Shown piece by piece: positions 18,242 to 36,412 of a stretch of DNA of 36,412 bases. Numbering within the stretch: the first letter of the stretch is position 1; each line of letters starts with the position of its first letter. Made by a program: the position numbers and the translations under genes. Source of the DNA: Parachlamydiaceae bacterium (GTDB lineage Bacteria; Chlamydiota; Chlamydiia; Chlamydiales; Parachlamydiaceae); assembly GCA_030147755.1 (NCBI GenBank), contig JASBUW010000166.1, forward strand, positions 1 to 36,412, written 5' to 3'. Below the pieces are notes generated by a model. It did no database searches. It worked only from the letters and a program-made list of their open reading frames with translations, and was not told the origin of the DNA.

Positions 18242-18275
18242 AAAATGCTAGCGCCCTAGCATATGATAGCATTTT
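18242..18275 (-). terminator. Hairpin at the end of the giant gene
   Basis: AAAATGCTA (18242-18250) and TAGCATTTT (18267-18275) form a 9-bp stem that starts at the stop codon of the 2435-residue gene and ends, on its strand, in TTTT. A second overlapping stem (AGGGCG/CGCCCT) is possible. Confidence 0.45.
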
Positions 18276-21200
18276 CATGAGTTGAGTTGAATAGGGATGT
18301 TGTGCTCATGGGCGTGTCCAATTTGTTCCAGTTCGTGAAGATGTAAATTGAAGTTTTTTTGATCTTTAAAATGTGGGCGAAGACTAGTATAAACCTTATG
18401 CCAGCTTTCTAGATAGTGCAGATGCTCTTGACGAGAGAGGGGTAAATCCAAAATCAAGTGGACTAAACGATGCGAATAGGTTAAGTCGTCTTTGTCAATC
18501 ATATATTGTCCGACTACCGGCATAATGCCGGAAATTTGAGTAAGATAATCAGATTTCATTCTAAAAAGAGAGCGACGTTGATAAATTAAGCTTAACAGTT
18601 GGAGAGCAGGCGCGTAAGCTCTATCTAAAACGACTTTAGTCCAGTTAAAATGCTCACGGGCTTCCGCATATTTTTCATCTAGAAACTTTTCATCTATTCC
18701 TCTTTCTAAAGTATGCATTAAAAGTGCATGCGCTTCCGCATGAGATTTATCTGAAGCTTGAGGAACTAAAGTTTTAAGAGCCGATAAGAAACGGAAAAAT
18801 AAAGCTTGTCGTTTAGAAAAATAAGCAGTAGGATCTGCCGGTTCTGCTAAAATAATATTGATAAATTCTGCAGAGATAGGAAAAGATGTTTTTGTCACAG
18901 TACATTCTTCTAAAAGATCAATGTATTTTTCCACTTTTTGTAAATAAGCTTCAAAATCTTTAGTGTGGTGAGCATAAAATTGAAAAGAATAAGTCGCAAA
19001 GGCGAGTTTATGCCGATGCGCACCTTTTTCCTGAATAAGAGTGCCAATTGATTCAAATAAAGCTTTATCCTCTGCATTTCCTGCCTCTAACCAGGGTGAA
19101 GAAGGCGTAATATGTGGTGTCAGGATTTTGATAAGAGTAGTCATGAGATTATCACATACTAATAGAGGATCATCATGCGGCTCTATTTGACTCAAACACC
19201 TCAACCATTCTTTCAAAATTTTGCGTTGATGCTGCTGGTCATGTACTGAGAGAACCTTAAGTTCACCTACAACAGTGGGATGAATTAAACGTTCTGTCCA
19301 CCTTTGCGCAAGCACAGTAGGTTTGGGCACTATGGCTTGCCATTTAGGGGAAAGAGTGGATAAATCTAATTGTCCTCTTTCTTTCGTGGATTCCGCTTTT
19401 TTCACGAGTGGCATAAATTCTTTTAAAAGTTTCAAATAAGCCATATTGCCATTGTTAAACATTTCATGATCGTATTGATATTGAAGAAATGTCAAGCAGA
19501 CATCAAGATGATAAAGATAGAAATGATCGACAGGATGCTTTGAGCACTTATCTAAATAGTGGCGTGCAGCTTGCCAGAATAGAGGAAAGACTTTTTTGGT
19601 GATCTGATGTTGAGAGTGGGCAGTATTTTGATTGGGATAGTTATAAAGTAAGCGATGAATGAAATAATCAAAAAGCGGTTCTACTTGGTTATTTTTACGT
19701 ATATGAGATTTTAGGGCATTGAAGAGTTTAGTATAAGTAGGCATAAATACATCGTATTGACGAGCATGAACGAGAATTGTTTGTAAATGCTCTGCAACAG
19801 TAATAGCTCGATGAAAACATAAAGGAGTATTTTGATCTAATAAACGCTTCAAAACACGCTCACACACTAGCTTGTGCTTAAGTGTGACATGATTTGTTGG
19901 ACAGATATTGAGATTTAAATACAATTCATATTCCATTAACTCATCAAGATGGTTTTTAAAAATTCCTTTCTGTTCGGCTTTTTTCAGTAATTTTTCACAA
20001 TAACCGGCGTGAGATAAATTAGTCACTTTGGCATGAGGGGGTAAATCCTGTATTTTGATAGCAGGGCTTAAAGGGTAGAGATAAATAAAAGTGCGTAATA
20101 AATCTCTCATTTCTGTTGCATGAGGAGCCGGTTTTTTTTCTAAATCGGTATCGATATATTGATGAAGAGTCTGTAATAAAGCCACTTTGATTGGATTCTT
20201 ATTTTTAATCGATTGCATGACCCAAGAAGCGTATTCTTTGAGGCAATTTTGGTAAGCAGGAGAAGCCTTAAGAGTCACTTGGTTTTTTGTGCCTAAAATG
20301 CGTTTTAACCCTTTGGTAAACTGATCCGTATGCACGCGGTTGCAAGGATTAGCGCGCGCATAAGGGTAAATAAGGTCTAGACTCCGATTTATCATATCTT
20401 GTAAGGAGTCAGCATGCGCAAAAAGATAAGGTGTCCACTTTTGGTAAGCTGTAAGTAATGTTTCAACCGTGGCATCATCCGGATCGCCTTTTACATCTTT
20501 TAATGTGCCATCATAAAGAGCAATTAAAAGTTGGTAACTGAGCTTGCTTTTTTCTTGAAGGGATAAATTCATTTTTTTAAAAGCTATCTCTAAAAGCTTT
20601 TGAGCTGTTCCTAAATCTTTTGAAGCGGGTGAAGTCAATAAGTGAGGAAAGCTAATTAAAAAAGAGGCTTTTAATTTTTCTATTTCTTGGATTGAACCCT
20701 TCTCCAAGATAGGCGTGCACAATTGAATTTGTAAATCCACATGATCGGTGGGAGTGTGTGTGGTCAAGGCAGTTAATATAGAAAGAAGTGCAGCACAAGA
20801 AGGCGTCTCTTGCTGACAAATGGTTTGAAGACGAGTAGTTGTAGATGTCCAAAAAGTCTTCTCCTTCTCTTTAAAAGAGGGATCTTCTTTTAAAGCAGCT
20901 AAAAGTGTTTCTTTTTTTAAAGAGAGGTAGCGCGTAGCCATTTCTTGCAAGTAAGGAAGATAAATAGAAGAAGATTGTAGAAAAGGTTGTAAAAATTGGC
21001 CGATTGCGAGTAAGCCGGCGGGATGTTGGGAATATTGCATATGCTGAATTAAAGCGAGATCTATTCTGTTTTCCCATTCGGTCAATTGATCCGCATCAGT
21101 TTGTGGCATATGGGGATTTTCCGCTCGCCATGCAGCGACAAGATCCGTTTTTTTCTTCACGATTTGATCAAAAGCGGCTTGATCAAATGTAGAAAGCGAT

Positions 21201-24200
21201 AATTGTTGGATTGCACCTAATAATACACTTTCTAAATTTTTGCGTTTGAAAAACGTGTTTAAAGAATCACTAAGAACAGGAGATAACAATGTAGGATCCT
21301 CATAGTAAGGAATCAGATCTTCAGGTTGACAATCTGCTAGCAAAGCAAAAGCGAGTGTCCAACATTCTGCACGCACTGGAGAAGAATTAGAGGGCAAAGT
21401 TTGATACGATTTCCACACTTCTTGGGTTAAAGTTTTATCTTCCTGCTGAAGCGGTGATTTGATCGACTTCCATAGCAACAACCAAAGTGCTTCCTCTTTG
21501 ATTTGATAGGTTGTTAAGAGATCGAAAGCAAGTTGCCGTTCTTCTTTTGTAGGCGAAGCAGAGTCTAAATAACGATGCAAAACATGAGTGACAAAAGGAA
21601 GAAGTTCTTGTTCTTCTTTTTTATCTTTGTTAAAAGTCGCGTGTAGGTGAGGATCTAATAGCTGCTCACGAAGGGATTCAACGGATGCAGACGATTGCGA
21701 TTCAGTCAGAAGACTTTTCCAAAAGCCTTGTAGCCTCTGACGTTGTGTGGAAATCTCTTCAGGAGTTTGAGAAATTGGAGTGTAGAAACTGATTGAAATT
21801 TGCTTTAAAATTTTAAAAGTTTGCGACCAATCTTTTTTCTCAATCAAGTGCTGCGCACACTTGAAAAAAGATTCTCTTAATTGTGTTTTTTGCTCTTTAT
21901 CTTTTAATTGTGGTTGAGATGTGTCTTTCACAACAGTGTTGAAGTAAAAATCTAACCATGGCCATAATTCTTCAGTTGTTAAAGTAGTTTGTAAGCAGGT
22001 AATGAAATGAGGAATTTCAGAATAAGAAGTAGGCGGAATATGCTTAATTAAATCATCGAATTTTTCCATGCTAACCAATTGTTTGAGGCGATCAGCAGAA
22101 GGGGAAGAAGCAGAAAGTTCTTGCTGACATAACCACCAGACGTGTGAAACTAAAGATTCATGTGAAATTCCATGGCGATTGAGATTTAAAATGAGATGAG
22201 CTGCTTCGTGTGCACACTGATTTTCCTGCAATTTTTCGAGGATTTTGAGGTGTTGCGATGCAATCCACGTTAAAGATTTGGGAGAAGGGGGTTGAGGAGA
22301 CTGTTGTAAGAGGTTAGCGATGAGTTTAAATAAGCGTAAATTTTGTTTTGTGTCTCGAGTTTTATGCATAAAACCCATGAGTTGTTCACAAAGGATCCAC
22401 AAAGTAGGAAAACGGTTAGCAGGATCAATCGCTAAAGTAGCTTCTAAATAATCAAATAAAAGTGTTTTCCATTCTTCTTCGGTGGAAGCTTGGTTAATCA
22501 AAGATTTCAATTCAGGACGAATTAAAAATTGATCCATTTGTGAAAAGGGTAAATTTGCTGCCGCCTTTGCAGCGACATCCTCATTTTTTAATTGCGCTAC
22601 TGTAGAATCAAAAGCTAAACGCATTTTGTCTTGTACTTCTTCACGTTTGTGAGAAGGCGTCACAACAAGTAAGATCTCCAAAAACTTCAAAGGAAAAGCA
22701 TGCGTAGATGCGCTTTCTGCTGCCACCCAGTTTAAAGCCCAGTCATAGAAAGCAACGACCGTTCTTACTTCTTCTCTTGCTTCTTGAGAAACATGTTCGA
22801 ATAAAGCTAGGCTTAAGGGTTTTTGATGCGCTTGTAGCAAGCTTTTTCCTAATGCAATCTGTAAAGATTGGATACGTTCCTTAGTCGCCTTCTCGCGATC
22901 TATAATTCCTTCTTGCATGAGGATATGATATAAAGACATGAGATAGAGGGCTTCTGCCGGTTTTTCCACAGAAGATTCTAAACGTGTTAACCATCTTTCT
23001 GTTTGGTCTTCCGATTGCAAACAATGACGACGACTCATTTCTAATAAAAAATAATCGGCTGTCGTTTGATATAAGGGAATGCCTTTTAAGGTATCTAAAA
23101 AACTCAATAAAATTTGATTATCTTCTGGAGTAAAAGCTTCAGCAGCATTTTGCTCAAAAAGAAAATAGAGGAAAGGAAGTAAACGATCAAGATCGCAAGC
23201 TATTTGTTCCGGAGCATTTTCATGATAGGCTTGAAGCAGCTGAAAAATGCGATCACTCTCTTCTCGAGGAGATAAAAAATGTCGAGGCTGGCTCGTTTGT
23301 AAAAAAGATAAAGCTAATGCAGGTTTTCTTAAACATAATTGATTAAAAATTTTCCATCCTGTTTCAATTGGAATTTGGTTTCGCGGCAAATGTTCTTGTG
23401 TTTTCCACCAGCTATAACTTAAGTGCAGTAAATCGAGTTCTTGGCTTTGCAACATGAAATCGATCCAATCGAATTCCGAAATAGTCGGTTTTTCTTTGAG
23501 AGTTTGCAATGCTTTTGCATACGTGGGGGATAGATGAGGGACGAGCTTTTCAAATATGTGAAGGTATGCAGATCTATCTTGTTCACGCATTGTTCTTTGT
23601 AAAAAGAGCTTTCGTCCAATACTCAGTAAAGCTTCTTTACTTAATGTAGGATTTAAAGAAGAAAGAAAAAGATGTAAACTAAGAGAATTGAGCAGGGGTG
23701 AACTGTGTTGATGCCATTTTGTTGCCATGTCCAGAAGTATCGAAGAATTTAAATGCAGATGCGCTAAAGAAGGCAATAAAGGGGAAGGATTAAAAGAAAA
23801 AGGAAAAAGCGTCGTCATCGCACTTTGTAGCTGTTGAAAAGCAGCAGGACAAGCATGGTGCGCAAGATAAGTGCGTACAGTTTGATCATCTTCTACAAGC
23901 TGAATAGGGAGAAAGCCTAGTTCAGGTGCTCTTAAGCGAAATACCGAGCGACAACCATGCGTTGTTGCCAAATGAGGAGTATACAACCACATCAGCAGTC
24001 CCATCCAAGCGGATGCCACAGAAAAAGGGATTTTTTCATCAACTAACGCTTTTTTAAGAGCAATTAAAAGATTTTGCTCAGGTTGATTGTCAGCCAGGGA
24101 TAACCACCTTTTCTGGTCGAATTTTTTCCAAATTTCGAAAATTTCTTGATCAGATAGAGAGGAATGCGTGCGTAAAGATTGACAAGCACGAAAAAGAAAA

Positions 24201-25582
24201 CCAATCACCGCAGCGGAGTCCACTTGTTTGGTATGAGAATCGACATATTTTGTGTTGATTTGTTCTTCAAGCAAGTCAGAGATGTATTGACTATCCGAAA
24301 CGTCCAAATTAACAGGCTGCTCAGAATTTGGTCCATGGAGACGTTTATGGCGTTCTTCTAAAAATTCTTGTTTGAATTGAAGTGTATTTTGAACCATTTC
24401 TTGTTCAATAGTGGGTTGCATCGAACGCCAAGGCTCATGCATGAAACGACACCAAGCATCTACATCAGGATTTAAAATAGTGGTTGTTTCACAAAGTAGG
24501 TCAATGAGGGCTTTAGAGGCGGTAAAAGGACGACATTTAATCGTTAAGTGGTGGTAAAGATAAATATGAGAAAGAGAAAGAGTCCAACAGGTTAAACTAG
24601 ACAAACAAGGATGTTTTAGAGAAAGTTGTCCATTGGGTTGCAAACTGACAAAAACCAAATCTAGAGGTTTATGATCCACCAAGTCTAAACCCAAAATGGT
24701 ATATTGAGTAGGAGGCTTATTCACGATATGGCGTTTGGATAATCCTCCAAATTCGACTATCAAAGCTTCTTGTAAATTATATTTTTTAGAGGGTGCATAT
24801 TTTACAGGATTTTTTTCGCTTAATTTAGTTTCATAGACATTACGATGTGTTAATTCGGGTAGTTGTGCAGCAAAATAAGACAAGGCATGTTTGCTCAAAG
24901 ACGTAAGAGAAGGAAGCGCGCCTTGAGCAATGACACGTATATCGTCATCTTTACCCTCTTTTAAAAATTGCTGTTGAACGTGAAATAAGCTAAACCAAGC
25001 CGTAATGCGTTCACTTGGTACCGCCGGTGAAAAAAAAGACTGAGCATTATACTGAAAAGGGTGCAACCCTATTTTCTGCAAAAGTCCTCGTCCAAAAGAT
25101 TCAGCATCTACAAGGGGAGGTAAAACTGTGAGTTTTCCATTTTCTTCAATCTGCTGTCTTGATAACTCAATCAATAACTCAGCGAGTGTAAAAGAAACGA
25201 TTAAACTGGCTCCATTTGTAAAATGAGGATTATTTAACCGAAGAGTTTTAAATAAATCTTGACGGAATTGCTCAATGACGCGTTGAATCTCCGGATGTTG
25301 CATCTCATTTGGATTAGAATGATGATACGGGAAAGTCAATAAATCTTGATGGTCAAAAGGAGCACAAGGATTTCCAAAAGCATCGCAAATTCCTGCTTGT
25401 TGCAACTCAGCCATGACCTGATCGGCTTCGCTAAAACAAAAATTCACGGGGACGGGTTTGGGCTCTTCCTCTGGCACTGCTGAACATATAGCAGAAGAGG
25501 ATGAAGTCTCTAAAGGAGTTAAGGCCTCTAAAGAAGCCATTAAAGCCCGCGGATCTACAAATGTTAGATGCGGAAATACCAT
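18275..25582 (-). CDS. Giant 2435-residue helical protein of unknown function
   Basis: I do not recognise this protein. It is one uninterrupted frame of 7308 bases with no signal peptide and no membrane segment. After a Ser/Glu-rich start (SSSSAICSAVPEEEPKPV, about residues 27-47), about residues 60-400 are mixed alpha/beta. The rest is nearly all amphipathic Leu-rich helices, which suggests a long HEAT- or TPR-like solenoid without a clean repeat I can phase by eye. His, Gln and Leu are abundant; low-complexity runs are few. Large solenoid proteins in intracellular bacteria are often secreted effectors or scaffolds, but nothing here proves secretion. It has no good ribosome site before ATG 25582. 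It stands alone, with a hairpin at its end and a perfect hairpin 155 bases upstream of its start. Confidence 0.85.
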   Translation of the reverse strand: MVFPHLTFVDPRALMASLEALTPLETSSSSAICSAVPEEEPKPVPVNFCFSEADQVMAELQQAGICDAFGNPCAPFDHQDLLTFPYHHSNPNEMQHPEIQRVIEQFRQDLFKTLRLNNPHFTNGASLIVSFTLAELLIELSRQQIEENGKLTVLPPLVDAESFGRGLLQKIGLHPFQYNAQSFFSPAVPSERITAWFSLFHVQQQFLKEGKDDDIRVIAQGALPSLTSLSKHALSYFAAQLPELTHRNVYETKLSEKNPVKYAPSKKYNLQEALIVEFGGLSKRHIVNKPPTQYTILGLDLVDHKPLDLVFVSLQPNGQLSLKHPCLSSLTCWTLSLSHIYLYHHLTIKCRPFTASKALIDLLCETTTILNPDVDAWCRFMHEPWRSMQPTIEQEMVQNTLQFKQEFLEERHKRLHGPNSEQPVNLDVSDSQYISDLLEEQINTKYVDSHTKQVDSAAVIGFLFRACQSLRTHSSLSDQEIFEIWKKFDQKRWLSLADNQPEQNLLIALKKALVDEKIPFSVASAWMGLLMWLYTPHLATTHGCRSVFRLRAPELGFLPIQLVEDDQTVRTYLAHHACPAAFQQLQSAMTTLFPFSFNPSPLLPSLAHLHLNSSILLDMATKWHQHSSPLLNSLSLHLFLSSLNPTLSKEALLSIGRKLFLQRTMREQDRSAYLHIFEKLVPHLSPTYAKALQTLKEKPTISEFDWIDFMLQSQELDLLHLSYSWWKTQEHLPRNQIPIETGWKIFNQLCLRKPALALSFLQTSQPRHFLSPREESDRIFQLLQAYHENAPEQIACDLDRLLPFLYFLFEQNAAEAFTPEDNQILLSFLDTLKGIPLYQTTADYFLLEMSRRHCLQSEDQTERWLTRLESSVEKPAEALYLMSLYHILMQEGIIDREKATKERIQSLQIALGKSLLQAHQKPLSLALFEHVSQEAREEVRTVVAFYDWALNWVAAESASTHAFPLKFLEILLVVTPSHKREEVQDKMRLAFDSTVAQLKNEDVAAKAAANLPFSQMDQFLIRPELKSLINQASTEEEWKTLLFDYLEATLAIDPANRFPTLWILCEQLMGFMHKTRDTKQNLRLFKLIANLLQQSPQPPSPKSLTWIASQHLKILEKLQENQCAHEAAHLILNLNRHGISHESLVSHVWWLCQQELSASSPSADRLKQLVSMEKFDDLIKHIPPTSYSEIPHFITCLQTTLTTEELWPWLDFYFNTVVKDTSQPQLKDKEQKTQLRESFFKCAQHLIEKKDWSQTFKILKQISISFYTPISQTPEEISTQRQRLQGFWKSLLTESQSSASVESLREQLLDPHLHATFNKDKKEEQELLPFVTHVLHRYLDSASPTKEERQLAFDLLTTYQIKEEALWLLLWKSIKSPLQQEDKTLTQEVWKSYQTLPSNSSPVRAECWTLAFALLADCQPEDLIPYYEDPTLLSPVLSDSLNTFFKRKNLESVLLGAIQQLSLSTFDQAAFDQIVKKKTDLVAAWRAENPHMPQTDADQLTEWENRIDLALIQHMQYSQHPAGLLAIGQFLQPFLQSSSIYLPYLQEMATRYLSLKKETLLAALKEDPSFKEKEKTFWTSTTTRLQTICQQETPSCAALLSILTALTTHTPTDHVDLQIQLCTPILEKGSIQEIEKLKASFLISFPHLLTSPASKDLGTAQKLLEIAFKKMNLSLQEKSKLSYQLLIALYDGTLKDVKGDPDDATVETLLTAYQKWTPYLFAHADSLQDMINRSLDLIYPYARANPCNRVHTDQFTKGLKRILGTKNQVTLKASPAYQNCLKEYASWVMQSIKNKNPIKVALLQTLHQYIDTDLEKKPAPHATEMRDLLRTFIYLYPLSPAIKIQDLPPHAKVTNLSHAGYCEKLLKKAEQKGIFKNHLDELMEYELYLNLNICPTNHVTLKHKLVCERVLKRLLDQNTPLCFHRAITVAEHLQTILVHARQYDVFMPTYTKLFNALKSHIRKNNQVEPLFDYFIHRLLYNYPNQNTAHSQHQITKKVFPLFWQAARHYLDKCSKHPVDHFYLYHLDVCLTFLQYQYDHEMFNNGNMAYLKLLKEFMPLVKKAESTKERGQLDLSTLSPKWQAIVPKPTVLAQRWTERLIHPTVVGELKVLSVHDQQHQRKILKEWLRCLSQIEPHDDPLLVCDNLMTTLIKILTPHITPSSPWLEAGNAEDKALFESIGTLIQEKGAHRHKLAFATYSFQFYAHHTKDFEAYLQKVEKYIDLLEECTVTKTSFPISAEFINIILAEPADPTAYFSKRQALFFRFLSALKTLVPQASDKSHAEAHALLMHTLERGIDEKFLDEKYAEAREHFNWTKVVLDRAYAPALQLLSLIYQRRSLFRMKSDYLTQISGIMPVVGQYMIDKDDLTYSHRLVHLILDLPLSRQEHLHYLESWHKVYTSLRPHFKDQKNFNLHLHELEQIGHAHEHNIPIQLNS

Positions 25583-25870: not shown

Positions 25871-26212
25871 TTGCTTAAGATGAGTTAAATAATTTTGCAA
25901 CTGTCTCATTAGGTCTATGAGGTCCATTAAAATTTATGAAGAAATTTTTTGAGATATTTTTCTCACAAAACTTCTAGACTCTTAATAGCTTCTTATATAT
26001 GTTCAGCAAATCCTTCAAGTAGCGGTCAATAACCCTATTTGAGCAGAATTTAACTCTCAAAATAGATGAAGAATCAAGAATCAAGAATTGAGAATAAATA
26101 AGAAAATTTTTAATAAAACGAGAAAAATATTCATTTTTTTAATTATAATTAATTATAAAGATAGATAGAATATTTAAAATATGTATATGGATTTAACAGA
26201 AAAGGTGGACGA
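25871..26212. other. AT-rich spacer before nrdR
   Basis: I see no gene, strong promoter or repeat here. It holds only short direct repeats (GAATCAAGAATCAAGAATT near 26072) and A/T runs. The nrdR ribosome site (AAAAGGTGG) is at its end. No convincing NrdR box pair was found by eye. Confidence 0.5.
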
Positions 26213-26686
26213 ATGAAGTGTCCATTTTGTCATTATGAGGGATTGAAGGTCACAGATTCTCGTGAAGCGACGGAGATGAATGCAATTCGTAGGCGACGAG
26301 AATGTTTACAGTGTGCGAAGCGATTTACGACTTTCGAAACTGTAGAATTGACGGTTCAAGTCAAGAAGAGAAATGGGACCTATGAAGATTTCCAACAGCA
26401 AAAACTCATTAATGGAATGGCAGCTGCTTGTCGTCATACCAAGGTAAGTCATGATCAAGTGATTGTATTGGCTTCTCAAATAACAGATGAGTTAATGCAA
26501 GCGCAAGTCAGGGAAATTAGTACAACGCAGTTGGGCGAAATGGTGATGAAATATTTACAAGCGCTAGATCCTATTGCTTATATTCGTTTTGCTTGTGTAT
26601 ATAGGCGATTTAAGGATTTAGGAGAGTTAGAAGAAGCCATCAAGACAATTCAAAGTAAAGATGAAACAAACTCTTGTTTGGCATAA
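26213..26686 (+). CDS. nrdR: Transcriptional repressor NrdR
   Basis: This 157-residue regulator senses ATP/dATP and represses ribonucleotide reductase genes. A zinc ribbon uses Cys3, Cys6 (CPFC) and Cys31, Cys34 (CLQC), with the RRRREC stretch between. An ATP-cone follows from about residue 49 (VKKRNGTYEDF) to about 139. No reductase gene is in the window. It is followed by dksA and lspA, an order I recall from Chlamydia (CT406-CT408). Confidence 0.96.
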   Translation: MKCPFCHYEGLKVTDSREATEMNAIRRRRECLQCAKRFTTFETVELTVQVKKRNGTYEDFQQQKLINGMAAACRHTKVSHDQVIVLASQITDELMQAQVREISTTQLGEMVMKYLQALDPIAYIRFACVYRRFKDLGELEEAIKTIQSKDETNSCLA

Positions 26687-26819
26687 GGGTTTGTGATATT
26701 CATAGGCTTTTAGGCCTGGACGTGCTTTAAAATGACTAAGAATGACTTGAACAGCTCATTATGAATTTTAAAACATCCCCCTAATTAGCCGTAAATTGCA
26801 CATGAATAGGAGGCTTAAA

Positions 26820-27185
26820 ATGGTACTTAAAAAAGCAGAACTAGCAAAATTCAGAAAGCGCTTAGAAGACATGCGTCGGCAGTTGACTCATTCATTGAAA
26901 GGGTCGACCGCAGAAGTCAAAACTCCCGATGAAGCCACAGGATATTCACAACATCAGGCAGACCAGGGAACAGATGATTTTGATCGTACAATTAGCTTAG
27001 AAGTGACAAGCAAAGAATATGGAATTTTGCGTCAAATTGATCGTGCTTTAGAAAAAATGGATGAAAATACCTATGGGGTCTGTGATATCACAGGTGAAGA
27101 AATCCCCTTAGCGCGTTTAGAAGCTGTGCCTTATGCGACAATGACCGTCAAAGCGCAAGAAAAGTTTGAAAAAGGATTACTCTAG
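26820..27185 (+). CDS. dksA: DksA/TraR-family protein with a degenerate zinc finger
   Basis: This 121-residue protein has the DksA plan: an N-terminal coiled coil (about 1-35), an acidic turn with QADQGTDDFDR (46-56), and a C-terminal finger TYGVCDITGEEIPLARLEAVP. DksA normally binds RNA polymerase's secondary channel. Only one finger Cys remains (Cys88); the other three positions are replaced, so zinc is probably not bound. ATG 26820 is chosen because AGGAGG lies seven bases before it; a TTG further up would translate through that site. The stop is eight bases before lspA, so the two are likely one transcript. Confidence 0.88.
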   Translation: MVLKKAELAKFRKRLEDMRRQLTHSLKGSTAEVKTPDEATGYSQHQADQGTDDFDRTISLEVTSKEYGILRQIDRALEKMDENTYGVCDITGEEIPLARLEAVPYATMTVKAQEKFEKGLL

Positions 27186-27193
27186 GCTTCGTG

Positions 27194-27724
27194 ATGAGTG
27201 AAATGTCTTCGACTACTAGCCAAGATGCGAAATTGTCTATTTCTTTAGTGTGGATTGGTCTCTTTGTTTTGTTGATGGATCAAGTGACAAAGGGACTTGT
27301 TTACGCCTATTTACCTGTGTTGGATTCTTCTCTTCACTGGTATCCTTACGGAGGAATTGGCATTTTTAAGAATTTTATAGGGCTTGAGTTTTCCATTAAT
27401 CATATGACCAATACTGGCGCCGCTTGGGGTGTATTGGGAAATTATCAACTCCCTTTAATTATTTTGCGCATTGGGCTCATCATAGGGCTTTGTTATTATC
27501 TTATTTGCTGTAATCGAGAAACTTCTTGGCAAATTCCTTTAGTCTTAATCATTGCAGGTGCTTTGGGCAATGTGTTAGACTTTTTTATCTATGGACATGT
27601 GGTCGACATGTTTCACTTCGTGTTGTGGGGATACGATTTTCCGGTATTTAACGTTGCAGATAGTGCCATTTCAATTGGAATTGCTTTATTGTTTCTGCTG
27701 TCTTGGTTAAAAGCAAAAGCATGA
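27194..27724 (+). CDS. lspA: Lipoprotein signal peptidase (signal peptidase II)
   Basis: This 176-residue inner-membrane aspartyl protease removes signal peptides from lipoproteins after lipid attachment. It has four hydrophobic segments and the family motifs: MTNTGAAWG near 71-79, GALGNVLDFF at 122-131, VVDMFHF with catalytic Asp138, and FNVADSAI with catalytic Asp156. The Arg that often follows GNxxD is Phe here. ATG 27194 directly follows a GTG at 27191; either could serve. Its TGA overlaps the next gene's ATG (ATGA). Confidence 0.95.
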   Translation: MSEMSSTTSQDAKLSISLVWIGLFVLLMDQVTKGLVYAYLPVLDSSLHWYPYGGIGIFKNFIGLEFSINHMTNTGAAWGVLGNYQLPLIILRIGLIIGLCYYLICCNRETSWQIPLVLIIAGALGNVLDFFIYGHVVDMFHFVLWGYDFPVFNVADSAISIGIALLFLLSWLKAKA

Positions 27725-28416
27725 TCCCTCAGTTGCCTTTAAAATCGAGTCCTGGTCCTTCTCTCCAAGCTTCTAAGTGGCAAAAAATTCCTGTTTTATT
27801 AGATGATGAGGAAATGCGTGCTCTTTTCCACGCACTGGGCACTTTCTGGATTGTACAAGTCAGTGGTCTTATTCCTAATGGGCAAGAAATTATTCCTCAA
27901 GACGCTTTTTTAGACGTTTATCATCATTATCTTTCGGCGCTTAAACAAGGCGAAACGCCTCAAGATCCCCGTTTGCGTGCTTATTTTTCCTCTGTTTTAA
28001 CGGTCGATTTAGAGGCGCTTTATGCCGTGCAAGTGAAGCCTGACCAGCGGTTGGTGAAAGTTGAAAAGCCCGTCATTCAATTGCAAGCACATCGTTTTGA
28101 CTATTCATTGGCAGATCAAACTTTTCGTTCAATGGTGATGGGCGCAGATAGTATCCAGTGGGGAATCCAATTTGCTTATCCCCATCTCTACCAAGATACA
28201 CAACTGCACGTGATGACAGTCAGGGAAAATGAACAATTTCCCAATACCGCTCTTTTTAAGCGCCTGCAGAGATGGATGCGGGAACAGACAATTGCTACTC
28301 CTTTCGAAGTGAATGGGAAGCGGACAAATGTCCCGATTCGCCTAGGGAAACAGTGTCTCAGTTGGATTAATACTCATCCCCAATTTGTCGCCAAAGGATT
28401 AAGTATCAAAGTGTAA
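27721..28416 (+). CDS. Unknown protein translationally coupled to lspA
   Basis: I do not recognise this 231-residue protein. ATG 27721 overlaps the lspA stop as ATGA, a strong sign of coupled translation. It is soluble by eye, without signal peptide, membrane helix or Cys-rich site. Mixed alpha/beta content with notable stretches HRFDYSLADQTFRSMVMGADSIQWGIQFAYPHLYQD (in parts, near residues 118-153) and FEVNGKRTNVPIRLGKQCLSW near the end. It is probably a Chlamydiae-specific conserved protein, given its place behind lspA, but I cannot assign a function. Confidence 0.75.
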   Translation: MIPQLPLKSSPGPSLQASKWQKIPVLLDDEEMRALFHALGTFWIVQVSGLIPNGQEIIPQDAFLDVYHHYLSALKQGETPQDPRLRAYFSSVLTVDLEALYAVQVKPDQRLVKVEKPVIQLQAHRFDYSLADQTFRSMVMGADSIQWGIQFAYPHLYQDTQLHVMTVRENEQFPNTALFKRLQRWMREQTIATPFEVNGKRTNVPIRLGKQCLSWINTHPQFVAKGLSIKV

Positions 28417-28562
28417 TTATATTTAAACAAATTTTATTTAAACTTAATTTAAAATAAAAATTATAGTAAATTAATTCAACGATATATTATAATTAAACCT
28501 GGGAAGGGAGGATGTAACTCTTCCTAAGGCCTGAGATCTAGTCCTTTTAATAGGAGGATGTT

Positions 28563-28760
28563 ATGGAAAAACTCTCAATGCATGAAATGCATGAATGTGT
28601 GGGGGGCTTACAATTGATTACTGGTTTAAACAACCTCAGTAATGGTGTAAAGGTTATACAAGCACCTACAGCTGCAATTCCTGGAGCATTAAATGCTTTT
28701 AGCCATGTTTTAGCAAATGTTGGCAATATTGATAATATTGCTGTTAATCCTTTTGCTTAA
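28563..28760 (+). CDS. Double-glycine leader peptide, candidate bacteriocin or signal precursor
   Basis: This is a 65-residue precursor. Residues 1-15 (MEKLSMHEMHECVGG) fit the double-glycine leader pattern, with LS, a hydrophobic heptad and Gly14-Gly15, cut by C39 peptidases. The predicted mature peptide (16-65, starting LQLITGLNNLSNG) is 50 residues, hydrophobic, Asn/Ala/Ile/Val-rich, with one Lys, one Asp and no Cys. This points to an unmodified class II-like bacteriocin or a signalling peptide, not a disulfide or lanthionine peptide. AGGAGG lies five bases before ATG 28563. A C39-containing ABC exporter is encoded 5 kb away (33783-35978). No immunity gene is recognised beside it. Confidence 0.78.
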   Translation: MEKLSMHEMHECVGGLQLITGLNNLSNGVKVIQAPTAAIPGALNAFSHVLANVGNIDNIAVNPFA

Positions 28761-28870
28761 CAGGATAATGATAGCCTTTTATTGAACTCGTTGATGATGA
28801 ATCAAGCAAACGGGTGATAAAGGGCTTTTTCTTTTTCTCAAGTCTTATGAATTCCTTGATAAAGAAGATG

Positions 28871-28940
28871 TGTATAGAAAACTTGATTTTTCTATACATG
28901 ACGAACTTGTCATGTATAGAAAAATCAAGTTTTCTATACA
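28871..28940. repeat. Nested perfect palindrome, 32-bp arms
   Basis: Arms 28871-28902 and 28909-28940 are exact complements with loop GAACTT. Each arm is itself a hairpin, TGTATAGAAAA and TTTTCTATACA around CTTGA. It lies between the convergent ends of the GG-leader peptide and Fic genes and could end both transcripts. Confidence 0.88.
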
Positions 28941-28964
28941 TGATAAAAATTTGTCACTTCATTT

Positions 28965-30050
28965 CTACATATTTTTTGCACCTACATTGAGTAAAAGGCC
29001 AAATAAGGCTTTGTTGATATAGTAATTTTCTTTTCCCTTTTTGTGTTTAGACAGAATATCGAGGTTTACTAGTGCATCCAAATATTTCATAGCCGTTATA
29101 CGTGTGACTTGTAATTCTTGCATGATGAAATCGATTTTAGTATAAGGATGTCGGAAAAGGTTATTTAGTAAATCATGACTATAAATTTTGGGAAGATTTT
29201 CTCTCATTTTATGTTTATGAGTTTGCATTAAATTTTTGATTCCCGATATCAAATATGTAGTTTCCCGCGAAGTTTGCTCTATTCCTTCTAGCATATATAA
29301 TATCCATTGTTCCCACTCTTGGTGATCACGTACAGCTTGAAGCAATCGGTAATATTCGCTTCTATTTTGGTTAATGTAACGAGAAAGATAAAGGACCGGA
29401 GTATCCAATAAACCATACTTTACGAGATAAAGTATATTGATAATACGCCCCGTTCTACCATTACCATCGTAAAAAGGATGGATGCTCTCAAATTGATGAT
29501 GAATTATTGCCATTTTAATAAGAGGATCCAAATCACTCAGAGTGTCATTGTTGATGAATTGTTCAAGATTATTCATCAGTATACGAATTTGCTGTTCATC
29601 TTGTGGAGGACTGTAAACGATTTCACCTGTTTGATCATTTTTGAGCACAGTACCCGGAAGTTTGCGAAACCCGGCGCTATTTTCTTCTAGAGTTTGCTGA
29701 ATTTCCAATATATAGCTGTTAATTAACAAGCCATTTTTCTTGACTTTTTCATATCCATTGCGAAGTGCTGTTGCATAACTGTAGACTTCTTTAGCCGCGT
29801 AACTACTGAATTGTTTAGTAGATACGTCACTTTTATAAAGTTCATCATGAGTTGTTATGATATTTTCAATCGCAGAACTATCTTTGGCTTCTTGTAATGA
29901 AAGTGTGCTAATGAGAATGTTCTGATTGGGAATGATGCCGGCTACACCTTTCAATTCTGCTAGCGCTCGATGTGCTTTAGCAAGTTTTTTCAAAATAGAT
30001 TTTGTTTCAAGTTCAAAAGAAAGAGGTAATTGTGGGATGCAGTAACTCAT
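28965..30050 (-). CDS. Fic-domain protein with N-terminal inhibitory helix
   Basis: This 361-residue protein would transfer AMP (or a related group) to target hydroxyls. The complete Fic motif HPFYDGNGRTGR is at residues 191-202, so the enzyme should be active. An inhibitory motif of the [ST]xxxE[GN] type, SSAIEN, is at 58-63 and would block ATP binding until displaced; this is the N-terminal (class II) arrangement. A winged-helix segment near the C-terminus (TKIDFIMQELQVTRITAMKYLDAL) is common in stand-alone Fic proteins. I chose ATG 30050 because the extra 15 residues from 30095 are encoded by repeat sequence (CCCAGGATTCGAAC on the minus strand). It lies between the GG-leader gene and the exporter operon. 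Confidence 0.93.
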   Translation of the reverse strand: MSYCIPQLPLSFELETKSILKKLAKAHRALAELKGVAGIIPNQNILISTLSLQEAKDSSAIENIITTHDELYKSDVSTKQFSSYAAKEVYSYATALRNGYEKVKKNGLLINSYILEIQQTLEENSAGFRKLPGTVLKNDQTGEIVYSPPQDEQQIRILMNNLEQFINNDTLSDLDPLIKMAIIHHQFESIHPFYDGNGRTGRIINILYLVKYGLLDTPVLYLSRYINQNRSEYYRLLQAVRDHQEWEQWILYMLEGIEQTSRETTYLISGIKNLMQTHKHKMRENLPKIYSHDLLNNLFRHPYTKIDFIMQELQVTRITAMKYLDALVNLDILSKHKKGKENYYINKALFGLLLNVGAKNM

Positions 30051-30086
30051 ATTACTTCTTCTGTTCGAATCCTGGGAATTGATAAT

Positions 30087-30136
30087 TATACACAAACAAC
30101 TTCAAAAATCGATTTTTTTGAAGTTGTTTGTGTATA
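30087..30136. repeat. Hairpin repeat family, copy 3 of 3
   Basis: The arms match those at 2453-2502 and 12115-12163, with an extra T pair around a TCGA centre. GAATCCTGGGAATT just before it is a remnant of the 2383-2447 hairpin, so the same two-part repeat is present here in shortened form. It lies between the fic start and the end of the HlyD gene. Confidence 0.87.
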
Positions 30137-30204
30137 TATTCTTGACATAATGCTTCCTATATATTTTCATGAAGTTCTTCAATTCTATCAAGCTTTTCCA
30201 TTCT

Positions 30205-31533
30205 TTAAGTTGTCTCTTGATCTTCTTTTTTCTGAGATTCAGGAAAAAATAAAGGCTTCAATTCATGCATTTTCTGCTTCACCCACCAAACCGGGAAAAA
30301 ATAAAAGAGAGGACGTACTTCTTCGATGAGTCCCTTGAAAATACAGAGGGTTCCACTTGATAATTGGATAGCGGGTCCTTGACCTGAGGTCCAACGATAA
30401 CCACTGGGTGTATGAGGATCGCGCTCAGGTTCTATGACGACCTCAAAGACAGCGGTTTTTTTTTGCAAAAGATAATCAATTAAAGCGAGATTATGAATCA
30501 TATGTTGCAAGGTTTCTGGAGACACCGCATGCGAAGAGATCTGCGTGATATGCCCTAATATCGCCCCGTATTCTTGCGATTTGATATTCGTTAATTCAAT
30601 TTCAACAGGTGCTTGAAGAGCGATTTTCTTATTTTCTAAAGGTAAATAGCCATAAAAAACCTTATAAGAAGAATGATCCATCAATTCTAAGCGCGCCAAC
30701 AATTGACCTGAAGCCACATAATTGCCAGGCTGTACAAACCATTCTAAAATTTTGCCATGAATGGGACTATAAATATGGCTATAGTGAAGTTGAGCCTCGA
30801 CGATGGCTTTTTCTTTGATGACTTCTCGTAATCGTTCTTCTAAAATAATCACTTCTTGATCACGATATTCTTTTTTTAATAGAAAGTCTAAATTCAATAG
30901 ATCCGCTTTAGTCTTTTCTAAATCAATTTGTTTGCTCCATAACAATTCTTGGCTTTCTCGTAGGCTGTTTGTGCTTAATAATCCTTTAGCTGCTACGATT
31001 TTCTTTAAGCGTACATCTTCTTGTAAGATGGGAATATCTTGCTCTAAAGTGTGCACTTTAAATTCAGCGACTTTTATGCCTGTCACAAGAGATTCAATTA
31101 CCTCTTTCTTTTCCGCATAAATTTCATGCTGTAAGTGTTTTAAGCGTTTCTCTAAATTGACAATGGTTTGTTGAAAAGCTTCTCGACGGGCATTCAATTC
31201 GGGATTATCCAGAACAACTAATAATTCTCCTTCTTGCACTTCTTTCGCTACATTTGAATTCAAATAACGGACAAATCCACTAAAAGAGGCATCCAAGTTG
31301 TATAAGCCTTCTGCATTAACAGCCACACCTACGCCTTGTGCTTCAATGGGAATGGATCCCCAAATTAGCCAAATGAGAAGTCCTATCCCTAGGCAGGCAA
31401 AACTTAATCTTGTCCACCATTTGCGATAATTCATGACTTGAAGAATATCTTCGAAGCGTTTGGAGCTTGAAAAGCTTTCAAGAGCGGCTGGACGAAAGAT
31501 ATTTCTTTTTTGAGTGGGTTCTGGTTCTGTCAT
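30205..31533 (-). CDS. HlyD-family adaptor of an NHLM-type peptide exporter
   Basis: This 442-residue membrane-fusion protein would link the inner-membrane ABC exporter to the outer envelope. One membrane helix is at about 43-60 (LSFACLGIGLLIWLIWGS). A long helical hairpin (about 115-240) is flanked by the two lipoyl half-domains (VQEGELLVVLDNPELNARREA and YSPIHGKILEWFVQPGNYVASGQLLARL, in parts). A beta-barrel domain follows. It is the last gene of a three-gene operon, six bases after the middle ABC gene. Within its 5' part the DNA carries the 15-bp end motif of the palindromic element (31452-31466), read as SSKRF. Confidence 0.9.
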   Translation of the reverse strand: MTEPEPTQKRNIFRPAALESFSSSKRFEDILQVMNYRKWWTRLSFACLGIGLLIWLIWGSIPIEAQGVGVAVNAEGLYNLDASFSGFVRYLNSNVAKEVQEGELLVVLDNPELNARREAFQQTIVNLEKRLKHLQHEIYAEKKEVIESLVTGIKVAEFKVHTLEQDIPILQEDVRLKKIVAAKGLLSTNSLRESQELLWSKQIDLEKTKADLLNLDFLLKKEYRDQEVIILEERLREVIKEKAIVEAQLHYSHIYSPIHGKILEWFVQPGNYVASGQLLARLELMDHSSYKVFYGYLPLENKKIALQAPVEIELTNIKSQEYGAILGHITQISSHAVSPETLQHMIHNLALIDYLLQKKTAVFEVVIEPERDPHTPSGYRWTSGQGPAIQLSSGTLCIFKGLIEEVRPLFYFFPVWWVKQKMHELKPLFFPESQKKEDQETT

Positions 31534-31539
31534 AGGTCT

Positions 31540-33786
31540 TTATTCGGTATTTTGTTGAATTAAAAGCTGAGAAAATAAAGGAGATGTTTCTGTTAGCTCA
31601 GTGAACGTCCCCTGTGCTACAATTTTTCCTTTATCTAACACATAAATTCTATCTATCCCGCTTCGTAATGTATCTAAACGTTGCGTAATTAAAATACGTG
31701 TGACAGGAAGTTGGCTCAAATTTTGATGAATTTCTTGTTGCTTTTGACTATCTAAGGCACTGGTGGCTTCATCTAAAATAATAATCTTAGGTTTGCCCAC
31801 TAATGCGCGTGCTAATAAAATCATTTGTCTTTGTCCGCCAGATAGAGCCGCTCCTCCATTTGTCAAAATGGTCAGAGCTTTCATGGGAAGTTCTTGAAGA
31901 AAAGAAGTCATTCCTGCTAAATGCATCGCTTCATTCACCTCTGCTTCACCATAATGACGACCCGTTGTAATGTTATCTATGATAGAGCCATCTAAAATAG
32001 CTCCTGTTTGCAGTCCAATACCTAATTGCGAGCGTAAAATTTGCAGATTCAAACCTTTCATGTCTTTATTATCATAGTAAATGGATCCTTGTTGAGGGGT
32101 TTCGAAACCCAACAACAAACGCACTAGAGTGGATTTTCCACATCCTGATAAGCCCACGAAAGCCACACATTTTCCTGGGTCAATCTTAAAAGAGAGATCC
32201 TGAAGGACAGGAGCCATTTCAGGTTGATAACTAAAGTTGATGCGATCCACTAAAATGTCGCCTGTTAAAATACCGGGATCAGCTTTTGTGATAAATGATT
32301 CCGTCTCTGCTTTGGTAAAGTCTTTAATTCTCTCCCATAAAGGAGCCACTAAACCCACTTGCATAATGGTTTTGATGATTTGATTGAGCGATGAGCTTAA
32401 TAAACCAAAAGTGGTCATGAAAGCCATAAAACTGCCTAAAGAAATGGCTTGGCTCTCAAAAATAAAAGAAGTTTTTTTTGAGGATAATACCAAGATGACG
32501 GAGAGATATAAGATGCCTAAACCCGCATTTGACCAAAAGGCGTTGAAAACTGCCATTTTCATTTTGAGCAGGAGCATTTTAAGATCCATGCGCTTCATGT
32601 GGGCAAATGTTTGTTGCCAGCGGTGGAAAAAGCGGATTTCAGCAGCAGCTAAACGAATTTTGCTAATCGCTTGAATGATTTCAAACGTTTTATTGCTAGT
32701 TTGAATTTGACGCTCAATCAGTTGCCGGCCGTAGCGCATGATAAAAGGCAAGAAACCTAGAGTAATTAAAGACGCAATGCCTAAGATGGCTAATGCTACA
32801 AACGCGAGAGATTGTCCATAATAAAACAAGAGTAGAAAGAAAACTAATGAGAAAAAAGCATTTAAAAAAACCATGAGAACTTGGCTCGTTATCAGCTGTC
32901 GAATAGAAGTGATAGCGGTCGTAAAAGTAAATAAGTCGTATAAACTATACTTACGGAAGAATTGAGTAGGTAAACTCATCATACGCTGCCAAATGGCAAG
33001 CTCTAAATCTTGATCAACGAGTCCCATTAAACGCAGCAAGAGTGTTTCACGGTTAAAATTGAAAATAAGCGTTGTCAAAATGAGGAGTAAAGCACCTAAT
33101 GCGATTTGTAAGATTAATTGATTATTGCGATTAGGAATCGCATAATCAAATAAAAAGCTTGTGATCATGGGAAGGCTAATGCTGACTAATAAACCGCATA
33201 CCGCTAAAAATAAAAAGATGATCCATTCTCGTCTTCTATACCAAATGCCAAATGTCCATAAATTGCGAAATGTCAGCTTATGTTCCGGCAAAGCGCGATA
33301 AAATAAATAGCCTTCAGGAGATATTTGAGAAGCTAACTGACGGTTTACGGTTAGTGTTTGCTTGGCGGTAGGATTAATAAGCTGATACCCTTTTGTAAAT
33401 TGAGAAATAAGTGCCACGGGTTGATGATCTTTTTCATAAAAACCGACAAAAGGAAAATCTAACTTTTTCCACCATTCATCCACGAGTCGAAATTTTCGAT
33501 AATAAATTTGAGAGCGTAAACAAAGTTGATGAATACGCTCTTCAACATTTAGGTCTGTATCGGATTGTGGTGTAGATAACCACTCAAAGGTCAATCCTAA
33601 CTGTTGCCCCACAAGTTGACAGCTTGCATATAAGGCATTTTGATGAGGAGTCGTAAAAGAGAGTTCGGGCGGGATGATGAGCGTTTGCAGTTGAGAAAGC
33701 GATTGCTGCAATAAGAATTGATGAAAATTTGCTTGTTGTTCTGCCTGTTCAGACAGGTGTGGATCATCTGGGGGAAAAGGATTCAT
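31540..33786 (-). CDS. NHLM-type ABC transporter with N-terminal accessory region, no peptidase
   Basis: This 748-residue half-transporter has about 180 soluble N-terminal residues (including RIHQLCLRSQIYYRKFRLVDEWW and FYRALPEHKLTF), then a six-helix ABC membrane domain, then the ATPase with Walker A GLSGCGKST, signature LSGGQRQ and Walker B IIILDEAT. The N-terminal region matches my recollection of the second ABC protein of NHLM systems and contains no C39 catalytic set. It probably pairs with the C39-bearing protein encoded upstream. Its ATG overlaps the upstream stop as ATGA, so the two are made together. Confidence 0.88.
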   Translation of the reverse strand: MNPFPPDDPHLSEQAEQQANFHQFLLQQSLSQLQTLIIPPELSFTTPHQNALYASCQLVGQQLGLTFEWLSTPQSDTDLNVEERIHQLCLRSQIYYRKFRLVDEWWKKLDFPFVGFYEKDHQPVALISQFTKGYQLINPTAKQTLTVNRQLASQISPEGYLFYRALPEHKLTFRNLWTFGIWYRRREWIIFLFLAVCGLLVSISLPMITSFLFDYAIPNRNNQLILQIALGALLLILTTLIFNFNRETLLLRLMGLVDQDLELAIWQRMMSLPTQFFRKYSLYDLFTFTTAITSIRQLITSQVLMVFLNAFFSLVFFLLLFYYGQSLAFVALAILGIASLITLGFLPFIMRYGRQLIERQIQTSNKTFEIIQAISKIRLAAAEIRFFHRWQQTFAHMKRMDLKMLLLKMKMAVFNAFWSNAGLGILYLSVILVLSSKKTSFIFESQAISLGSFMAFMTTFGLLSSSLNQIIKTIMQVGLVAPLWERIKDFTKAETESFITKADPGILTGDILVDRINFSYQPEMAPVLQDLSFKIDPGKCVAFVGLSGCGKSTLVRLLLGFETPQQGSIYYDNKDMKGLNLQILRSQLGIGLQTGAILDGSIIDNITTGRHYGEAEVNEAMHLAGMTSFLQELPMKALTILTNGGAALSGGQRQMILLARALVGKPKIIILDEATSALDSQKQQEIHQNLSQLPVTRILITQRLDTLRSGIDRIYVLDKGKIVAQGTFTELTETSPLFSQLLIQQNTE

Positions 33787-35978
33787 GTCTTATTCCTATG
33801 CCTTTCAGCATTCACTAAAACTTGATAAAGGCCAGGTTGTTGCATGAGTTCTTGATGATTTCCTCTTTGTATAATTTTGCCTTTATCCATCACTAAAATT
33901 GTTTCGCAATCTTGAATGGCTCCTAAACGATGCGTGACAACAAGACAAGTGCATCGTCTTTTGCGAATATTCAATAAAATTTGTTTTTCTCTGAGCGCAT
34001 CCACTGCGCTTGTGGCTTCATCTAAGATTAATAACGAAGGATTGCGCGCTAGCGCACACGCAATTTCGAGTCGTTGGCGTTGACCCCCACTAAAATTAGC
34101 TCCTTGCTTTTCGATCAAAGACTGATAGCCACCGGGACGTAACATAATTTCATCATGAATACAGGCATCTCGAGCAGCTTGTACAAGATTGTGATGGGAA
34201 ATCAGCGGATTAAGCAAGTTAAGATTGTGTTCAATCGAATCATTAAATAGCATGGGCATCTGTTCGACAAAAGCAATATAGCGTGCTAAATCCTCTGGTG
34301 AATAATCTAAATGCGAAATTTCATCAATTAAAATGTCCCCTTTCCAAGGTTTAAGTAAGCCTCCTATTAATTTAATGAGCGTCGATTTTCCACATCCGGA
34401 AGGTCCTATTAAAGCTGTAAAGGATCCGGGAGTGAGCGTTAAATTAATATCTTCCAAAAGAGGAGCAGCTAAACGATTAAATCCAAATGAAAGATTTTTA
34501 ACTTCGATATGTCCTTTAAATTCACTTAAGCGAGCAGGATGCGGCCTATCAAGTGCGGGATCTTCCGGGTGTAATAAAACATCGTTGAGACGGCTTGTAT
34601 TGATGGTCAGTAATTGTAAAGTTTGGTTGAGGTTGATTAAATTTAAAACAGGATCTGTAAAATTTTTAAATAAAATTTGCAAAGCGAAAAATTCTCCTAC
34701 TGTCAGATAACCTTGAATGATGCGCCACGCCCCAATGACTAAAACTGCGATATAACCGAGAGAAGAAAGAAAAGGAGAAAGCGTGCCTAAAACAATATCT
34801 GCGCGCGCCATTTCTTGTGTAGCATTCAATGATTTTGCGTATAGTCCTCCATAGCGAGATAAAAATTGGTATTCTCCGCCTACTGCTTTTAAAGATTCTA
34901 TATTTTCTAATCCTCCTAAAGTAAAAGAGGAAAGCAGTCCTTGAATTTGTCTATAATTAGAATAAGCATTAGCGCGTGAGCGATAAAGATAAACCATGGT
35001 AAATAGATTAAGAAATACTAAAGTCATGCCTATCAAAGTGATGGGAACATCATAATAAAACATGACAATCGCAAAAAGAAAAGCAAACCATAGACTAATA
35101 AAAGCAGATAGCACTTGCCCCACAAATGTGTCTGAGACAGCTTGATTTAAACCCATACGACTTGCGATTTCTCCTCCATACCTTTGCATAAAAAAAAGAA
35201 GGGGAAGGCGCAAAATGCGCCAAAGAAATTGGCTCGATAATAGAGTCGAGAGCTGAATGGAAAAATTGACGGATACTCGACTTTGTAGAAATTGGATGAG
35301 AGTGGCAACAATCATCATCACAAAAATGGCAATGATAAATCCCACTTCCCAGCTATGCAGGCGGGCAATGAGAATATTATCGATAAATATTTGGCTTAAG
35401 ACCGTTAAAGCAAGAGCTGGAACGATGGCCAATATGCCGACGAGTAAACCAAAAAGCAATGGCCAACGAAAGAGTTTCAAGCGCTGTTTGATATTTTGCC
35501 AAACGGGATCTACCGTTTTTAAGCGTTTAAAGGCATCAGAAGGAGTTAGGATGAGAACCACACCAGTAAAAAGTTGATTGAGTTCTTCGTAACTAATTTT
35601 TCTAGGACCTGTAGCAGGATCATTAATGTACACATGTTTTTTGCTAAAACCTTCAATGACAACAAAGTGCTTAAATTCCCAAAAAGCAATCAAGGGGAGA
35701 GGCGCTTTATACAATTCTTCTAATTCACAACGGTAGCCTTCTGTTTTTAATCCGTAGGATTCTGCTGCACGTAAGATATTTAAAGCATTCACTCCATCGC
35801 GCGAAGTGGCACATAATTGGCGGGCTTCATCCAAAGAAACTTGGCGTCCATAATAGCCTGTGATCATGCAGAGAGCAGCAGCGCCGCATTCAGCTGCTTC
35901 TAGCTGAATGACTGTAGGAGTGCGACATCTGCGATAAGAAGCGCGTGTAGGACGTGGAATAGAAGAGGGCATGCGCAT
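33783..35978 (-). CDS. Peptidase-containing ABC transporter (C39 leader peptidase)
   Basis: This protein of about 731 residues cuts double-glycine leaders and exports the peptide. The C39 domain spans about residues 20-150: Cys31 in LEAAECGAAAL, His104 in EFKHFVVIEG and Asp120 in INDPATGP form the expected triad. A six-helix membrane domain follows (about 180-450), then the ATPase with Walker A GPSGCGKST, signature FSGGQRQR and Walker B LLILDEAT. I chose ATG 35978 (or 35972). The longer frame to 36083 would translate the GTGGAC repeat at 36041-36077. It is the first gene of the operon, overlapping the next by four bases. Confidence 0.92.
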   Translation of the reverse strand: MRMPSSIPRPTRASYRRCRTPTVIQLEAAECGAAALCMITGYYGRQVSLDEARQLCATSRDGVNALNILRAAESYGLKTEGYRCELEELYKAPLPLIAFWEFKHFVVIEGFSKKHVYINDPATGPRKISYEELNQLFTGVVLILTPSDAFKRLKTVDPVWQNIKQRLKLFRWPLLFGLLVGILAIVPALALTVLSQIFIDNILIARLHSWEVGFIIAIFVMMIVATLIQFLQSRVSVNFSIQLSTLLSSQFLWRILRLPLLFFMQRYGGEIASRMGLNQAVSDTFVGQVLSAFISLWFAFLFAIVMFYYDVPITLIGMTLVFLNLFTMVYLYRSRANAYSNYRQIQGLLSSFTLGGLENIESLKAVGGEYQFLSRYGGLYAKSLNATQEMARADIVLGTLSPFLSSLGYIAVLVIGAWRIIQGYLTVGEFFALQILFKNFTDPVLNLINLNQTLQLLTINTSRLNDVLLHPEDPALDRPHPARLSEFKGHIEVKNLSFGFNRLAAPLLEDINLTLTPGSFTALIGPSGCGKSTLIKLIGGLLKPWKGDILIDEISHLDYSPEDLARYIAFVEQMPMLFNDSIEHNLNLLNPLISHHNLVQAARDACIHDEIMLRPGGYQSLIEKQGANFSGGQRQRLEIACALARNPSLLILDEATSAVDALREKQILLNIRKRRCTCLVVTHRLGAIQDCETILVMDKGKIIQRGNHQELMQQPGLYQVLVNAERHRNKT

Positions 35979-36040
35979 TACTCGACTTAACCTTGAAATT
36001 TTCTTTTCTACTCTTGTTTTGAGATATAAACAAGTAAAAG

Positions 36041-36077
36041 GTGGACATGAGTGGACCACGTGGACTTCGTGAGACAA
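36041..36077. repeat. Diverged GTGGACNNN array
   Basis: GTGGAC starts at 36041, 36051 and 36060 (steps 10 and 9), followed by the altered unit GTGAGACAA. The 10-then-9 spacing is the same as at 16430-16457, so the two arrays share descent. No inverted partner is visible. It lies just upstream of the exporter operon, in its likely promoter region. Confidence 0.75.
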
Positions 36078-36250
36078 TTGCAAAAGTATTTTGCATGTTA
36101 TACAGCGATTCTTTGGAAGTCAATCGTGTCCGGGATCAAAAAGAATCTATTCTAGAATGCTCAAAAGAACACTCAAAAATTCGTGTTTTGTGGAAAGAAG
36201 CAATAAATTAATGCGATGTGCGACTTATCCAAATGAATTTATTATGATGA

Positions 36251-36412
36251 CGCGAAGCGTTTGGAGCCCCTAAGCAACTTCGTTGCTAATATCAAAAAGT
36301 AACAGCGACCTTTTTGGTAGTTGGTCAAAGTATACTTAAAAAGACTGGTTTTATCTGTGCGGTAGCACTATCACTGCATTAGCCCAGAACGAGCGCATTT
36401 AGCGCTCGTTCT
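36251..36412. repeat. Second copy of the nested-palindrome element, cut by the window end
   Basis: This matches the reverse complement of 16850-17011 over the same 162 bases with about nine differences and no gaps. It starts with the end motif CGCGAAGCGTTTGGAGC and reaches the GAGCGC/GCGCTC stem before the window stops. The rest should lie beyond base 36412. Confidence 0.92.

Follow-up and report, generated by a model that had tools for sequence, protein, structure and literature searches.

A short double-glycine leader precursor beside an NHLM-type exporter in a chlamydia-like bacterium

The reading frame at 28563-28760 of the window (the whole stretch of 36,412 nucleotides analysed here, from a Parachlamydiaceae bacterium) very probably is a genuine gene, encoding the precursor of a small secreted peptide. 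From its sequence, the precursor is quite likely cleaved and exported by the adjacent transport system, and by analogy with known peptides there is an even chance that the mature peptide is antibacterial and microcin-like. The precursor family appears to be new and its kind is known. The gene, its leader motif, the conserved core, the intact protease and ATPase motifs of the exporter, and the linkage of precursor and exporter in two families were all computed here and support this reading.

The precursor gene and its leader

As the original prediction had proposed, the 65-residue product begins with a double-glycine leader, and its gene carries a strong ribosome site, the Shine-Dalgarno sequence AGGAGG, which can be read in the sequence and ends five bases upstream of the ATG start (Table 1). 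The leader is 15 residues long and ends with Gly14 and Gly15. It agrees with the full double-glycine pattern of C39 substrates, i.e., L(-12)xxxE(-8)L(-7), a hydrophobic residue at -4 and an end in GG, GA or GS. The C39 protease domain LahT150 recognizes L-12, E-8, L-7 and the hydrophobic residue at -4, and cleaves a synthetic substrate carrying just the last 13 leader residues (PMC6363468). The residues read by the C39 domain (L-12, E-8, and hydrophobic residues at -7 and -4) are present in the window leader, all of them within the last 13 positions. The leader has no match to the TIGR01847 double-glycine signal model at E up to 1, where such a match is a supporting criterion only and the motif itself defines the leader. 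Neither a long nitrile-hydratase-like nor a Nif11-like leader is present, and the 15 residues match no family at E up to 1.

The 50-residue core is free of Cys and has a net charge of 0, in accordance with the earlier description of a Cys-free core with almost no charge; 26 of its 50 residues are hydrophobic. The C-terminus, NIDNIAVNPFA, is not the Gly/Ser-rich end for siderophore attachment by which class IIb microcins are recognized, and the weight originally placed on the NPFA ending is misplaced, as it is not conserved among the relatives. The suggestion of a new peptide is supported, the family being probably new, and the precursor has no significant match in Pfam, NCBIfam, PHROGs or the PDB. 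An AlphaFold model (mean pLDDT 50) was set aside as evidence.

A hairpin with a T-rich tract behind it lies 3' of the precursor stop and is a probable intrinsic terminator; the region 28758-28850 has a minimum free energy of -22 kcal/mol (z -2.25). A simple terminator scan, whose loop limit is 8, omitted this hairpin. From the hairpin and T-rich tract, the precursor gene is probably transcribed alone, as a monocistronic unit. Further downstream, between the precursor and a Fic gene, is a perfect inverted repeat of 32 bases with a 6-base loop, which could be a bidirectional terminator; it has no other substantial copy in its own genome and is therefore not a repeated element there. Rfam gave no match over 26000-36412 of the window.

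Table 1. Coordinates of the precursor gene, its neighbours and related loci (window positions unless a locus or contig is named).
Feature	Position	Strand	Description
Shine-Dalgarno site	28552..28557	+	AGGAGG
Precursor ORF	28563-28760	+	ATG start, 65 aa
Double-glycine leader	28563..28607	+	MEKLSMHEMHECVGG; L-12, S-11, E-8, M-7, C-4, G-2, G-1
Putative mature core	28608..28757	+	LQLITGLNNLSNGVKVIQAPTAAIPGALNAFSHVLANVGNIDNIAVNPFA; 50 aa, homologous to L017 core
Probable intrinsic terminator	28774..28838	+	hairpin then T-rich tract, from folding energy
Inverted repeat	28871-28940		32-base arms
SoFic-like Fic protein	28965-30095	-	NF046030, E 7e-121, below cut-off
Membrane-fusion protein, NHLM HlyD	30205..31533	-	TIGR03794, above curated cut-off
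ABC2, NHLM exporter subunit without C39 peptidase	31540..33786	-	TIGR03797, E 1.5e-194, below curated cut-off
ABC1, C39 peptidase-permease-ATPase	33783..35972	-	TIGR03796, E 3.8e-249, just below cut-off; Pfam Peptidase_C39, E 2.5e-38
2435-aa protein	18275-25582		
Two small His/Gly/Tyr-rich proteins	6357-7530		adjacent
Second NHLM-type exporter, same genome	contig C69 (L018) 4004-13949		with TolC
Precursor homologue	L017:10326-10526		leader MNKKKLTDNELKNCVGG, then 49-aa core; another family of the same order
M48-type metallopeptidase	L017:9033-9965		Pfam, E 5.5e-9
Short-leader peptide	L020:12668-12832		54 aa, METKELNKEELKSVVGG
Short-leader GG ORF	L092:8538-8693		
Short-leader GG ORF	L093:7356-7502		no recognised ribosome site
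Precursor with long GG leader	L023:640-906		88 aa; leader ends LSESEMSKISGG
NHLP-type precursor	L083:2778-2984		Cys-containing core, LSACGGFCTDSSSG; another genome of the order

The adjacent exporter

The placement of an NHLM-type exporter next door is borne out: TIGR03794, TIGR03796 and TIGR03797, which together mark this type, are the best-matching families of three window proteins (HlyD, ABC1 and ABC2). The start of ABC1 was placed at an in-frame ATG downstream of a TTG at 36083. ABC1 keeps the C39 set Gln23, Cys29, His102 and Asp118, invariant among 45-46 homologues from the order; ABC2, which lacks a peptidase domain, has Walker A, LSGGQ and Walker B. A C39 exporter with an intact active site is thus linked to the precursor gene in the window, and an exporter also lies near the gene at L017 and L020 (two loci in the same order; see below). 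The precursor is on the strand opposite to the exporter. Past the exporter ORF, the window contig (C133) continues for only about 330 bases. The window holds no TolC; a TolC-like gene is found on contig C69 of the same genome, beside a second NHLM-type exporter whose ABC2 is 1009 aa long and which includes two HlyD proteins. A double-glycine precursor beside this second exporter was sought on that contig and none was found.

In a tree of 46 ABC1 proteins, the window protein groups with those of C69 and of genomes G003, G022 and G023 (98/98 support), and the L017 protein lies elsewhere. Since the two exporters are apart in the tree, the precursor, judged by sequence, is conserved across rather different exporters. 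The short-leader loci do not form one clade.

The Fic protein is encoded in the gap that separates the precursor from the exporter, with the same strand as the exporter and about 110 bases after HlyD, which would suit a modifying enzyme or immunity factor of the system; such a role is very unlikely, however, given that eight related genomes carry Fic proteins 70-82% identical to it and only one of these genomes, G023, has a match to ABC1, on a different contig from its Fic gene, and that the L017 locus has no Fic gene. Fic was rejected as a component on this distribution, seven of the eight Fic-bearing related genomes being without an ABC1 match. The statement that no modification enzyme and no obvious immunity gene lie nearby also stands: no modification gene was recognised near the precursor in the window with Pfam and NCBIfam, nor any immunity gene in the window, whose contig ends close to the exporter, or beside the L017 precursor.

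In the proposed search of the bacterium's own genome for sister precursors, two leader patterns run over its 3.46 Mb find the precursor ORF. None of the remaining matches is a convincing precursor with a short leader, as they are out of frame, in what we take to be ribosomal protein L2, or where a longer frame begins. This search combined DNA patterns with a protein search, which unusual leaders could escape.

Homologues and other short-leader loci

One full-length homologue was found among 234 genomes of the same order, at L017 (41% identity over 51 aa, E 1e-9). The original prediction was to be abandoned if no homologue had a conserved GG site; the L017 homologue keeps it, and the claim survives. 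Conservation between the two precursors extends over leader, GG and core, and includes the Cys at -4. The cores alone align with a score of 79, about 11 s.d. above shuffled sequences (mean 24.4, s.d. 5.0; 0/5000 as high), and the leaders with a score of 40 against a shuffle mean of 12.9. Across 46 ungapped codons, the differences at codon positions 1, 2 and 3 number 23, 10 and 29, a coding-type pattern that reads as that of a protein under selection. The L017 precursor adjoins, and is convergent with, a complete TolC-HlyD-ABC1-ABC2 operon; it is opposed to its exporter as in the window, but with no Fic gene in between. An M48-type metallopeptidase gene lies next to it.

These data bear on whether 28563-28760 might be a chance frame with a GG and no gene at all. 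Short as it is, with no Pfam or NCBIfam match and a single full-length homologue, the frame has a strong ribosome site, a probable terminator, and a homologue with coding-type substitutions beside an exporter in another family. Moreover, order-1 resamples of the window never (0/200) yield a short ORF that starts with ATG and combines a Shine-Dalgarno-like site with this leader consensus; the real window has one. We regard a chance origin as extremely improbable.

The 54-residue peptide at L020 adjoins a third ABC1 exporter. Its leader is related to the window leader, so that the leader is conserved across all three loci, and its core similarity is insignificant (730/5000 shuffles as high). It passes TIGR01847 (18.0 bits, cut-off 15.7); its score in our own profile is not independent, as the peptide was first found by position and then put into the profile. 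Scans of genome_contigs (two), viral_contigs and plasmids found no relatives of the precursor. Other weak whole-genome matches (E 0.009-0.9) were rejected as relatives, most being in long reading frames and some containing stops (one inspected).

The original prediction held the pairing of a short classical leader and an NHLM-type exporter to be unusual, which is not supported, as this combination is already known elsewhere. Within the same order, the loci L017, L020, L092 and L093 each have a short-leader GG ORF close to an NHLM-type exporter. On the Bradyrhizobium plasmid pCB82_1 (NZ_CP121651.1), four genes with the 16-residue leader MIRELIDTELEVVAGG and Cys-free cores stand beside annotated NHLP exporter genes, their cores having no significant similarity to the window core; in Methylobacterium, a short leader is found near an NHLM-type exporter. 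In cyanobacterial group V clusters, which have an extra ABC transporter without C39, 16/37 precursors are neither NHLP nor Nif11 (PMC3140520). That short-leader peptides accompany NHLM-type exporters in several lineages recommends mining these exporters beyond NHLP and Nif11 precursors. NHLP-type leaders also occur in the order, at L021 and L083 (TIGR03793, E 2e-12 and 6e-12), and the precursor at L023, near HlyD and ABC1, has a 52-residue Gly/Ser/Lys-rich GG leader. The literature searched yielded no paper on chlamydial double-glycine peptides, an absence that is not proof, and a paper on sponge chlamydiae mentions RiPP-like clusters only (PMC9666466).

Proposed export and function of the peptide

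Cleavage, export and activity of the peptide are what we infer from these sequences. Within the adjacent ABC1, the C39 domain would hold the 15-residue leader as a helix and the precursor would be cut after Gly15. The core, which is not visibly modified, would leave the cell through ABC1 (together with ABC2), the adaptor of HlyD type and an outer membrane channel of TolC type whose gene lies elsewhere. The mature peptide may then act, in a microcin-like manner, against other bacteria sharing the niche.

The class II microcins of Enterobacterales (microcin V and relatives) resemble this arrangement in their leader of 15-18 residues ending in GG, their ribosomal peptide of about 5 kDa, and their C39 exporter and HlyD-type adaptor; they are exported by a C39 ABC transporter, a membrane-fusion protein and TolC (PMC10233263). 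The corresponding set is found as the C39 ABC transporter and membrane-fusion protein of the window and the TolC-like gene on contig C69, with TolC in the operon at L017. Unlike the class II microcins, the window has an exporter of the two-ABC NHLM type, a core that matches no known family, a microcin activity that is predicted only, and no immunity gene found. Each class II microcin has an immunity gene, whose product (51-216 aa) is usually encoded adjacently and shares no sequence features with the others (PMC10233263). The missing immunity gene at the window and L017 loci weakens the microcin label; the label is still tenable because double-glycine peptides of Bacteroides without an immunity gene are cited in the same review (PMC10233263) and because contig C133 ends near the exporter.

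NHLM systems with NHLP or Nif11 precursors (TIGR03793/03798) have the same three exporter families and the same GG cleavage logic (PMC2887384), but their GG lies on average at positions 83 and 70, against 15 residues in the window leader; the window locus, moreover, has no maturation enzyme, and its core is not hypervariable but conserved between the two homologues. The Bradyrhizobium pCB82_1 peptides share the short GG leader, a Cys-free hydrophobic core and an adjacent exporter, and the 'other' cyanobacterial precursors share the exporter set without being NHLP or Nif11 (PMC3140520). The EbfG1-4 proteins of Synechococcus elongatus are likewise small GG proteins whose export is aided by a C39 peptidase transporter; they differ in their role in biofilm control (PMC4997328), and the likeness drawn here is one of description.

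EbfG1-4, which use the GG motif and a C39 exporter in biofilm control (PMC4997328), raise the alternative that the exported peptide is a signal, or a surface or aggregation factor, between cells. The lack of a recognised immunity gene at the window and L017 loci and a core conserved between families rather than hypervariable would fit such a role, which we nonetheless consider unlikely: no receptor or response-regulator gene was recognised nearby and, in our judgement, a known peptide signal would be shorter and less hydrophobic than this core.

Environmental chlamydiae are obligate intracellular bacteria. The genome looks environmental-chlamydia-like, judging by gene sets of this kind and by the comparison set for the phylum, which is a single order of 234 genomes. 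An exported peptide would meet host compartments first, so that it might be delivered to the host vacuole, or to the host cell itself, and act on the eukaryotic host. We think this improbable, as a culturable plant-associated bacterium (Bradyrhizobium) also combines this type of exporter with Cys-free short-leader peptides and the core has no host-like feature that we could see. The broader proposal is that an intracellular bacterium resembling chlamydiae secretes a microcin-like peptide which is unmodified, belongs to a new family, has a conserved core and lacks an immunity gene, and which kills rivals in a shared host cell or acts on the host; it is speculative and we put it forward with little confidence.

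If expressed, the microcin-like precursor favoured here would be a candidate secreted peptide of a chlamydia-like intracellular bacterium, where, in our own judgement, peptide competition and signalling are little explored, and its conserved core offers a concrete 50-residue peptide for synthesis and testing. Elsewhere in the window, we note a 2435-residue protein for which Pfam gives nothing significant (best E 0.05), and the two small His/Gly/Tyr-rich proteins, which have hydrophobic starts and are possibly metal-binding.
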